Assembly (NCBI GenBank): GCA_947168905.1
Contig: CAMVNR010000001.1
Span: forward strand, 1-64,000
Reading direction: 5' to 3'
Origin: an uncultured Lachnospiraceae bacterium
GTDB lineage: Bacteria; Bacillota; Clostridia; Lachnospirales; Lachnospiraceae
DNA length: 64,000 bases
Within the stretch, counting starts at the first letter, position 1. Every line of letters begins with the position of its first letter. The notes under the pieces are model-generated. The model worked only from the letters and a program-made list of their open reading frames with translations. It was not told the origin of the DNA and made no database searches. Both the position numbers and the translations under genes were made by a program. Shown piece after piece: positions 1 through 3,158 of this stretch.

Positions 1-529
1 AGATGTTGCCAAAGAGATAGGTTGCGCACCTCTTACTATTTCGCGTATGGAGAGCCCACACGGCGGCGGCGAGGACAAGCACGCCCGCCGTTACCGCTGC
101 AGCTGTTTTCAGGCGGCGCCTTCTCGCACGGTCAGGAAGCAGTGCCGTTTCGGATTCCTCCCCGTTCGGGAAAGGTTCCCACGAAAGGATTTCACCGCCC
201 TTTACGGTCAGGATACCTTTTGTCCCGACCTCGTACTGACTGATGCTTTTGAACATGCCGACGATCCCCTCAAACTGCGTATCGTCGTCAAAACGAAATA
301 CTACCTTCCACCGCTCCGCTGCTCCCGGGAGATTGATCGGTGCGTTGGTTTTCGTTACGCCCGACAGTGTCGATCCCAGCGGATTAACAAAATCGGCGTT
401 CTTTACGGAAATGATTTCCGCGGCTCTGGTCTGTTTCTTTTTTCCCCTGTACAGGCTCATATCAACGATTTCCGGCCTTTTTTTCGCCCTCGGTACTTCC
501 TGTACAAATTCCGGATCAACCTGTAACAT
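1..529 (-). CDS. 5' part of unknown single-pass membrane protein (cut by window edge)
   Basis: The gene starts at the ATG at 529, about 7 bases after a GGAGG, and stays open for 176 codons to the left edge, so its C-terminus is missing. Residues 1-40 are polar and basic. Residues 73-117 look like a small beta-rich domain (RWKVVFRFDDDTQFEG, then GTKGILTVKGGEIL), loosely like the small DUF2500-type domains of Firmicutes membrane proteins; this is a tentative family impression. A basic stretch (RARRRRLK, about 134-141) is followed by one hydrophobic segment at about 142-160. The orientation suggests the N-terminal domain is cytosolic and the unseen part outside. I do not recognise a function. 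A good extended -10 promoter lies upstream (586-614), so it is probably its own transcription unit. Confidence 0.7.
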   Translation of the reverse strand, partial: MLQVDPEFVQEVPRAKKRPEIVDMSLYRGKKKQTRAAEIISVKNADFVNPLGSTLSGVTKTNAPINLPGAAERWKVVFRFDDDTQFEGIVGMFKSISQYEVGTKGILTVKGGEILSWEPFPNGEESETALLPDRARRRRLKTAAAVTAGVLVLAAAVWALHTRNSKRCATYLFGNI

Positions 530-585
530 AGAGCACCTCCTAATCATTCATCTGCAAAAACAAATCCATGGATCCTTGTAATGCA

Positions 586-694: not shown

Positions 695-2104
695 TTATTC
701 TATCGAAGCCGTCACGCCGATAAACACCGGGATCTCGTCCCGCAGAACCAGATAGACAAACGGCCTATCAAGCGTGACGACTTTCCGTACCGTGGGCGCC
801 TGTTCCGCCGCCGCACCGGTCACATTCACGACGGTTGCCGCGGCCGCCTCCGTCCCTTCCCGGCTCAGTTTCAGGAAGGTTTTCTGCCGGATCTCACTTG
901 CTGAAAGCGGGGCGCCGGCCGAGCGGGCCATTTTCGTGAGATCCGCATCATCAGAAAAGAGCTTCCGAATGCCCATCGCTTTCATCGTTTCGGACAGAAG
1001 ATATTCTTCTTCGACGGAGAACTCCGGAATGGTTGTCTGGACTTCCGCACTCTGGATCCGATTCTGCCACAGATTGTTCCAGGATTCTGCGGTAAGAGAC
1101 GCGGCGAATTCATAGATATCCATATCATCATCTAAAGGCAGAAGAGCCGCAAACTGAAATTCACCATGTCGGTACGGCCGCACGACACCGATTGCGGTGT
1201 CATCCTGGAGATAAGTGCTCTCCCAAGACTTCAGCATCGATACCGGCTTTGAACTCCCGTCCGCATTTCGGAAGGATTTCTCGATCACATCATCTTCCCG
1301 GTATTCCTTTTCCCAGACTCCTTTGAAGGCAACAGCGTTCAGAAGGAAGATCATGTCTTCATCTGTCGGCGGACTGTCAAGAATTCCCGGGATCATTCCG
1401 TCCGTATTTTCACTGCACCACTGATTGATTTTCCGGGCCGTCTCATTATCAAAGGGCTCCCCGTAAACCCCGGTGTCATACCAGTCCGCGAGGGTCTGGA
1501 GATACGATTCCTGCATCTCGATTTCACCGGTATCACGGAACCACAGAGAATTTGCGAGCGTCATTTTCTGTTCTGCCGAAACCGGAATCATTCTCTCAAA
1601 TGCATACAGTTCCCTGTTCAGTTCATCAGTTGAAAGCCCCAGAACTTTTTCGAGTTCCGCTTTTGTTTCCCCGTCCGCGCCGTTTGCCGCAAGCGCAAGA
1701 CAATAGTAGGCAGAGAGCGGAGAAACCAGGATATTTCCTTTTCCTGTGCTGTCCGAAACCCTCCGGAACATTTCAAAGGAAAAGTCTGAGCAGGATTCCC
1801 GCAGAGCGTCTGTGACAAGCGGTTCTTCCGTATTTTTCCTGGAATAGCCTGAAAGCAGGTTTACGCTTGCCGTGAACACCGGCTTTGGGGGGGCTTTCGT
1901 CATTTCCGTTGATATCGGGACGGTTTCGCTTCTGATAAACCCTTTCAGAAAGAAAGCCACAGTTCCCACTACGAGAAGGATTCCTGCCGCGACTGCCGCG
2001 AAACGCAGCCATTTCACGCGGTCCGCTGCGGGTGACTTATTCGCATCGGCAATATACTCCTCCCGTATTTCGCCGATGGCCTCATGTAATTTTTCTGACT
2101 TCAT
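695..2104 (-). CDS. Membrane-anchored serpin in the anti-sigma position
   Basis: A 469-residue serpin-family protein. Residues 1-33 are cytosolic (MKSEKLHEAIGEI...), residues 34-54 form one membrane helix, and the serpin fold follows from about residue 100 to the end, so the inhibitor domain should face outside. The hinge of the reactive-centre loop, EGTEAAAATV (from about 416), keeps the small-residue pattern of inhibitory serpins, and the C-terminal RPFVYLV and IPVFIG strands are present. The cleavage site cannot be fixed exactly because the loop is a few residues longer than in alpha-1-antitrypsin; counting from the hinge puts Ala near P1, which would suit an elastase-like target. Its ATG overlaps the stop of the sigma gene (ATGA), so the two are translationally coupled. 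The short cytosolic N-terminus plus helix is the layout seen in many clostridial partners of ECF sigma factors, so it may restrain the sigma factor; that is inference. Confidence 0.9.
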   Translation of the reverse strand: MKSEKLHEAIGEIREEYIADANKSPAADRVKWLRFAAVAAGILLVVGTVAFFLKGFIRSETVPISTEMTKAPPKPVFTASVNLLSGYSRKNTEEPLVTDALRESCSDFSFEMFRRVSDSTGKGNILVSPLSAYYCLALAANGADGETKAELEKVLGLSTDELNRELYAFERMIPVSAEQKMTLANSLWFRDTGEIEMQESYLQTLADWYDTGVYGEPFDNETARKINQWCSENTDGMIPGILDSPPTDEDMIFLLNAVAFKGVWEKEYREDDVIEKSFRNADGSSKPVSMLKSWESTYLQDDTAIGVVRPYRHGEFQFAALLPLDDDMDIYEFAASLTAESWNNLWQNRIQSAEVQTTIPEFSVEEEYLLSETMKAMGIRKLFSDDADLTKMARSAGAPLSASEIRQKTFLKLSREGTEAAAATVVNVTGAAAEQAPTVRKVVTLDRPFVYLVLRDEIPVFIGVTASIE

Positions 2105-2661
2105 ATCCAGATATCCTCCTCTGATAAGCGGACGCGAAGTTTATCCCTTGTCCGCATCAGAATCATTTTGATTTTGCCCTCACTGTAACCGAAGCGTTTT
2201 GATATTTCACTGATGGAATCATAGTACCAGTATCTCCTGAGAAACACCCTGCGTTCCGCGGTTCTAAGTGTTCCGAGGAAATCATCGATGATCCGCGTAA
2301 GTTCCCCGGCTTCCAGCTGTTCGTCCATACGCTGCCCCGATGGTATGCATTCGTCGAGTTCGTCAAAAGCAAGGTTCGGTTTTCCTCCGCCGCGTTTATC
2401 CGCAAGTTGTGCGCGGAGTTTTTTCAGCGACAGCCTCCGGGTGATCTTCCCTAAATAGGCGGAAAAGAGCACGGGACGCTGAGGCGGAATCGTATTCCAT
2501 GCCGCAAGAAGCGTATCATTCACACATTCTTCGGCGTCTTCCCGGTTATGCAGAATATGATCCGAAATGGAATAGCAGAACCATCCGTATTTCGTCTCAG
2601 TCTCCGAAACAGCCGCTTCGTCACGCTGCCAGAACAGTTCTATGATTTGCTGATCCTCCAT
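2101..2661 (-). CDS. ECF-type RNA polymerase sigma factor
   Basis: A 186-residue sigma-70 family protein of ECF size. Region 2 contains the core-binding and -10 reading segment (about residues 10-80, ending in AYLGKITRRLSLKKLR). Region 4 has a helix-turn-helix (SISEISKRFGYSEGKIKMILMR) that would read the -35. The start at 2661 (MEDQQ) is chosen because AAAGGAGGGG lies about 8 bases upstream; an in-frame extension to 2736 has no ribosome site. It overlaps the downstream serpin gene by four bases. It probably forms a signalling unit with that membrane protein. Its target promoters cannot be inferred, and the promoter in front of it looks like ordinary sigma-A rather than an autoregulated ECF site. 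Confidence 0.92.
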   Translation of the reverse strand: MEDQQIIELFWQRDEAAVSETETKYGWFCYSISDHILHNREDAEECVNDTLLAAWNTIPPQRPVLFSAYLGKITRRLSLKKLRAQLADKRGGGKPNLAFDELDECIPSGQRMDEQLEAGELTRIIDDFLGTLRTAERRVFLRRYWYYDSISEISKRFGYSEGKIKMILMRTRDKLRVRLSEEDIWI

Positions 2662-3005: not shown

Positions 3006-3070
3006 TCACAAATCTTCAATTTTTGGCTTAAAATAAGGGGTTTACGCACGCCCACGAGGGCATAAAAAAA

Positions 3071-3144
3071 TAGCGAGAGGGGGATTTGAACCCTCGACAC
3101 CGCGGGTATGAACCGCGTGCTCTAGCCAACTGAGCTATCTCGCC
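3071..3144 (-). tRNA. tRNA-Met (anticodon CAU), elongator type
   Basis: A complete 74-base cloverleaf on the minus strand. The acceptor stem is GGCGAGA/TCTCGCT with discriminator A, the D arm contains AGCTCAG, the anticodon stem-loop is CGCGG-TTCATAC-CCGCG, and the T arm is GAGGG-TTCAAAT-CCCCC with one shifted pair. The anticodon CAU could also be a lysidine-modified Ile tRNA, but the G1-U72 start and overall body resemble elongator Met tRNAs of Firmicutes. CCA is not encoded: the 3' A is followed directly by a T run, which may help end transcription. Confidence 0.93.
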
Positions 3145-3158
3145 ATATTGCACTTTTT

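Follow-up and report, generated by a model that had tools for sequence, protein, structure and literature searches.

A membrane-anchored serpin encoded beside an ECF-type sigma factor in an uncultured Lachnospiraceae bacterium, a candidate protease-sensing anti-sigma factor

The sigma gene and its serpin-bearing partner

We analyzed a 64,000-nucleotide window from an uncultured Lachnospiraceae bacterium (assembly GCA_947168905.1, contig CAMVNR010000001.1, positions 1 to 64,000), near the start of which a gene for an extracytoplasmic function (ECF)-type sigma factor overlaps a gene for a 469-aa membrane protein with a serpin domain (Table 1). As in ECF sigma/anti-sigma pairs, the 186-aa sigma factor has regions 2 and 4 only, and its co-encoded partner has a cytosolic N-terminus and a membrane helix. 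The partner consists of about 33 polar residues, then the hydrophobic helix, a linker, and the serpin. Its orientation in the membrane is N-in, such that the short N-terminus is cytosolic and the serpin lies outside. The sigma stop and the partner's start share the four bases ATGA, and translation of the two genes is likely coupled through this overlap. The original prediction had described this arrangement, including a full serpin with an inhibitory-type hinge, and the Pfam match, the ATGA overlap, the AlphaFold2 (AF2) model, and the hinge GTEAAAAT all agree with it.

The PF00079 match covers a complete serpin domain and exceeds the curated threshold (E 1.2e-76, 258.8 bits vs. a cut-off of 27, profile positions 2-366 of 370). 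The closest sequence match in the PDB was a tengpin-type serpin (E 3e-71), and the closest fold match of the AF2 model was tengpin (2pef). This model, built from 21 aligned fusions, had a mean predicted local distance difference test (pLDDT) score of 80. The serpin body was modeled confidently (mostly pLDDT 85-95), with residues 427-440 of the reactive loop unordered, and the N-terminal part comprised low-confidence helices at residues 4-11 and 16-20 and a long helix at 27-56. PF00079 was the sole family detected in the protein; residues 1-103 had no Pfam match even at E 1, and a profile of the N-terminus found nothing in the PDB below E 0.2.

Inhibitory serpins share a hinge consensus of Gly at P15, Thr or Ser at P14, and small residues at P12-P9. 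The window hinge GTEAAAAT (within REGTEAAAAT) satisfies this consensus, with Thr at P14. By spacing, P1 would be Ala, a position that cannot be fixed from sequence alone; Ala at P1 would allow elastase- or subtilisin-like targets.

Table 1. Features of the sigma-serpin locus (positions in the window)
Feature	Position	Strand	Evidence or remark
ECF-type sigma factor gene, 186 aa, regions 2 and 4 only	2101..2661	-	Sigma70_r2 and Sigma70_r4 above Pfam cut-offs; TIGR02937 above cut-off
Fusion gene, putative anti-sigma factor with serpin, 469 aa	695..2104	-	
ATGA overlap, sigma stop/fusion-gene start, 4 bases	2101..2104	-	
Predicted cytosolic anti-sigma module, residues 1-33	2006..2104	-	two short helices in model, pLDDT about 50
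Membrane helix, residues 34-56	1937..2005	-	hydrophobic peak from residue 35; AF2 model
Low-confidence linker outside membrane, residues 57-103	1796..1936	-	AF2 model
Serpin domain, residues 104-464	713..1795	-	PF00079; PDB match; AF2 model; fold match
Hinge REGTEAAAAT and reactive center loop, residues 415-440	785..862	-	
ECF-like promoter candidate upstream of sigma gene, TGTTACC-N13-CGGT-...-GTGAAA	2694..2732	-	hand-written pattern

The N-terminal module and its ectodomains

Eight matches to the window sigma factor were found in its own genome, seven of which (the window included) had at least 40% identity, and each of the seven is followed by a gene whose product starts with an N-terminal module of this type. 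The window's copy is the only one of the seven known to carry a serpin; one partner (L036) is broken by a contig end and was recognized through a profile search. A genome-wide search with a profile covering the N-terminus plus helix (alignment A2) returned 16 sites with E no higher than 0.1. Seven of these covered the cytosolic part and were exactly the seven sigma partners; the other nine aligned from column 15 onward, mostly over the helix. The original prediction implied that relatives of this segment should not occur away from sigma genes, and throughout the genome all 7 of 7 cytosolic-part copies followed one. Similarly, we derived a hidden Markov model (HMM) for the 32 cytosolic residues from 19 serpin fusions alone; run against 3699 frames, it matched at E < 0.1 only fusions and non-serpin proteins from sigma-containing loci. 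A plain signal anchor was considered for the N-terminus and ruled out because the module is tied to sigma genes.

Within the genus, 27 of 71 sigma matches were examined (the eight in the own genome were examined separately; L285, a weak match, was omitted, and L278 ends at a contig edge). A readable downstream gene was present at 26 of the 27 loci, and 25 of these 26 partners matched the cytosolic HMM at E 0.0011 or better, the sole exception being the partner at L274 (0.45). One of the 26 carried a serpin (L273, a gene that also appears as L081), and no Pfam domain above cut-off was found in the 10 genus partners and five own-genome partners tested. The module is conserved with the sigma factor across genomes and is, as far as sequence can tell, a general anti-sigma scaffold. 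It had been proposed that the serpin stands in for the anti-sigma factor. The serpin does occupy the ectodomain position of a membrane anti-sigma factor, which is well supported, but it replaces only the sensor domain, and the predicted anti-sigma part is still present. Another kind of ectodomain was seen at L039 (G000:C54), the partner of a paralogous sigma factor, where a series of repeats rich in Ala, Glu, and Lys (AAEKAAED-like) may form a coiled stalk.

The nearest sigma orthologues, with 65% identity in genome G013 and 62% in G004, have the same four-base overlap with their partners. The starts of these partners match the window protein over the first ~76 and 58 residues, respectively (blastp E 8e-11 and 1e-7). 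Past this start, they have no further credible match to the window protein and no serpin. The helix and promoter region are retained in both genomes, and GTGAAAGGCCTTATCAA is identical in G013. Because the overlap, the N-terminal module with its helix, and the promoter region are kept in these orthologues but the ectodomains are different and lack a serpin, the window serpin was acquired by a domain swap onto an existing sigma/anti-sigma system. Moreover, chance does not account for the arrangement, as the four-base overlap is found again at paralogues and orthologues, along with an N-terminal module of this type.

Further sigma-serpin pairs with the same N-terminus were found in many genomes, as anticipated. 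Serpins were present in 32 of the 61 genomes of the relatives search and in 91 of 250 family genomes, and the pooled searches gave 170 serpin frames (the window included, with at least one protein counted twice, L016_2 and L070_2). The serpin start lay -60 to +120 bases from a sigma stop in 25 of these 170 frames. Among the 25, 24 had a long cytosolic N-terminus and helix and one (L016) had a signal peptide; 13 had a gap of -4, as did L261/L262. Tallied by start type, 24 of the 27 long-N-in serpins lay directly after a sigma gene vs. 1 of about 143 other serpin frames, and the three long-N serpins placed elsewhere were two later serpins of a sigma locus and L153, near a contig start. The remaining serpins were mainly lipoproteins, and otherwise had a signal peptide or no helix. 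At L158 (G126:C51), five serpin genes stand in tandem on one strand.

We also scanned named genomes with four close fusions as queries; the linker and serpin motifs used were those of one type. The 80 loci recovered contained 88 serpin frames, of which 57 immediately followed a sigma gene and 31 did not, and the choice of motifs biases these counts towards such fusions. All 57 fusions were assigned an N-in helix, either by the script or on inspection of their N-termini; four that the script had labeled "lipo" are included. The loci came from Lachnospiraceae, Oscillospiraceae, Acetatifactor, Blautia, Ruminococcus, and Butyricicoccus. After more distant sigma factors, an RYK..NEGIHAPEE-like N-terminus was clear at L241, L246, L247, L253, and L255, and sigma scores similarly low to those of this group were found at L244, L248, L249, and L258. 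Further N-terminus types occurred in the fusions at L046, at L101/L132, and at L145/L153. Judging from these types, more than one predicted anti-sigma scaffold carries serpins. At L090 (G077:C153, 1660-2163, reverse strand), the regulator combines an XRE-type helix-turn-helix with sigma region 4, without a region 2 match, and its serpin-fusion partner retains the usual anti-sigma N-terminus despite this.

In a FastTree phylogeny of serpins (159 rows of at least 300 aa, with eleven shorter frames dropped beforehand), the closest relatives of the window domain were L010 and L073 from the same genus, with 99% local support. Judged by its start, L010 is a lipoprotein; the start of L073 is unreadable. 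The "fused" label changed at least 19 times across the tree, with eight changes forced by supported branches, and label shuffles gave a mean of 21.7 changes, with 13 of 500 as low as 19; these changes may include both gains and losses, and the tree has flagged long branches. We read this as repeated exchange, without a settled count of separate origins. The own genome has a second serpin, L002 (end of G000:C21, 1498-2243, reverse strand), with a lipoprotein start near the C-terminal serpin half only, which is either a truncated gene or a misassembly.

Proposed sensing mechanism and competing explanations

We propose, with moderate confidence, that the 469-aa protein is a membrane anti-sigma factor whose serpin ectodomain would serve as sensor and inhibitor in one, analogous to RsiV. 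At rest, residues 1-33 would hold the co-encoded sigma factor at the membrane, as architecture and homology suggest. An extracellular serine protease that attacks the serpin loop would become trapped, and the serpin would change shape or be consumed. By analogy with RsiV-type pathways, trapping would then expose or trigger cleavage near the membrane, after which a site-2 (M50) protease would act and the N-terminus would be degraded, setting the sigma factor free. The own genome contains one M50 protease. Promoter motifs suggest that the freed sigma factor would transcribe its own operon, yielding more serpin. Because a predicted anti-sigma holder inside is joined to a protease-trapping serpin outside, the cell may feel protease attack, perhaps via the reactive loop, through the very trap that stops it. 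Loop attack as the signal and a serpin that guards the cell, the two options raised in the original prediction, are both plausible. A more speculative extension, to which we give less credence, is that the suicide inhibitor acts as its own gauge. Each trapped protease would consume one anti-sigma factor and free one sigma factor that orders a replacement serpin, a stoichiometric metering that gut Clostridia may have built repeatedly by plugging serpins into different scaffolds.

A possible cleavage site was seen in many fusions of another serpin type, where Ala-Tyr-Ala follows the helix and could, as a lead only, represent a signal-peptidase-like site. Of 68 fusions with an A-x-YP extension of the serpin, 24 had the motif [AVSTIL]YA shortly before it, vs. 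2 of 48 free serpins (p 4e-5), in a test that was chosen post hoc and involves related rows (77 fused and 166 free serpins were examined, the rest having no such extension). A looser xxA motif preceded the extension in 58 of 68 fusions vs. 33 of 48 free serpins.

To look at output, we trained a promoter model of three blocks (TGTcACAT, TTGCGACT, ATAGGTGAA) with 42 named loci; it placed 12 of 20 held-out fused loci above the 95% shuffle level and 9 of 20 above the 99% level. For the own-genome paralogues, three of six exceeded the 95% level and none the 99% level. The hand-written pattern occurred at three places in the own genome, two of them at sigma operons, and its reverse at none; the pattern was framed after viewing the window sequence, which makes the window match circular and leaves its rarity and the paralogue match alone to carry weight. 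If the candidate is right, the main target of the sigma factor would be the operon that encodes it, and hence the partner serpin. Upstream of the pair, a tRNA-Met gene lies on the same strand at 3070-3145. At the contig start, the serpin gene is followed by a partial gene (2-547, reverse strand) with no Pfam family above cut-off, a possible third operon member.

Several observations weigh against the proposed mechanism. P14 was Val or Cys, not Thr or Ser, in 18 of 23 fusions, P9 was mostly Tyr or Phe, and the L132 fusion had a broken hinge; therefore, not every fusion need be an inhibitor. The N-terminal module matched nothing in Pfam or the PDB, and the claim of anti-sigma activity therefore rests on gene order and architecture. 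In the trained model, the window promoter was weak (p 0.043) and placed elsewhere than the candidate at 2694-2732. M50 proteases are near universal, being present in 14 of 14 control genomes, and the window protein has no signal-peptidase-like Ala-Tyr-Ala after its helix.

Gene order elsewhere bears on what else the serpin might do. At about ten loci, a sigma gene and a short anti-sigma-like gene are followed by a third gene for a separate secreted or lipoprotein serpin (L085, L065, L098, L054, L058, L099, L063, L130, L143, and L151), with the middle gene at several of these recognized only by helix and position. At L016/L070, the order is sigma factor, secreted serpin, then fused serpin. Serpins can therefore be products of sigma operons without being a sensor domain. 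The window protein could be an anti-sigma factor with the serpin as surface-protecting cargo, its sigma factor being freed by another signal, such as envelope stress or site-1 protease activity. We consider this rather unlikely, as the serpin fills the exact place of other ectodomains in paralogues and orthologues, which is the usual sensor position, and its repeated joining to different anti-sigma N-termini exceeds what operon membership needs.

The hinges speak to another alternative, in which a non-inhibitory serpin fold is a cleavable bait or ligand binder and loop cleavage alone signals. The Val or Cys at P14 and frequent Tyr or Phe at P9 in most fusions, together with the broken L132 hinge, would fit this explanation. 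However, the canonical Thr is present at P14 in the window, L046, L090, L092, and L101 (5 of 23), and 19 of 23 fusions passed a loose inhibitory rule that keeps the small hinge residues, making a purely substrate-like serpin improbable. Because 114 of 119 unlinked serpins passed the same rule, fused serpins seem slightly less orthodox as a group. Lastly, although the own genome was assembled in 154 contigs, an accidental pairing of a plain signal anchor with a sigma gene, by coincidence or an assembly join, has almost nothing to recommend it, being contradicted by the recurrence of the architecture in many genomes (often with the same four-base overlap) and by orthologues that retain the N-terminus; this recurrence also rules out an assembly artefact as the origin of the pair. 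Overall, the arrangement is real and recurrent, and an anti-sigma factor that carries a serpin as its ectodomain accounts for it well; this factor may sense proteases.

Relation to known systems and significance

The closest functional parallel is the RsiV/sigma-V system of Bacillus and Clostridioides. According to the part of the source available to us (PMC5014341), RsiV binds and inhibits lysozyme, and binding leads to its cleavage, first by signal peptidase and next by RasP. Both systems would pair an ECF sigma factor with an anti-sigma factor in the membrane, and in each the ectodomain would bind the attacking enzyme and inhibit it. However, the window ectodomain is a serpin and not the RsiV fold, its target would be a serine protease, and its N-terminal module has no Pfam match. 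Membership in the RsiV family was rejected, as there is no RsiV-type ectodomain and PF00079 was the only family at E 1.

In the sections available of PMC3413522 and PMC3990059, the RsgI/sigma-I systems of cellulolytic Clostridia likewise combine one anti-sigma scaffold with interchangeable sensor domains within one genome. The window system differs in its ECF-like sigma factor with regions 2 and 4 and in having a serpin rather than carbohydrate-binding or glycosidase domains. RsgI membership was also rejected, with no RsgI N-terminal domain and no Pfam match in residues 1-103 at E 1. The accessible text of PMC7406223 describes anti-sigma factors with two helices in a short cytosolic part, like helices 4-11 and 16-20 of our model; no sequence relation to this type was found, and the PDB gave nothing convincing. 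In the same text, the selection limit for class I anti-sigma domains is at least 50 cytosolic residues, and this class was rejected because the window's cytosolic part, at about 33 residues, is too short.

The bacterial serpins tengpin, siropins, miropin, and PinA share the serpin fold, with tengpin nearest in the PDB. In contrast to the window serpin, none has a sigma partner mentioned in the portions of the bacterial-serpin literature available to us. We found no description of a sigma-serpin pair in the open-access papers searched, subscription papers and preprints being outside that search.

If our proposal is true, this would be the first transmembrane signaling route known to us with a serpin as bacterial receptor. 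RsiV, which acts on lysozyme, would then be joined by a second inhibitor that doubles as the anti-sigma sensor for the attacking enzyme it blocks. Bacterial serpins gain a directly testable regulator, and the finding suggests a widespread family of modular anti-sigma factors for which Pfam lacks a model. In Lachnospiraceae and Oscillospiraceae, such a protease switch would tie the levels of host or microbial proteases in the gut to gene control.
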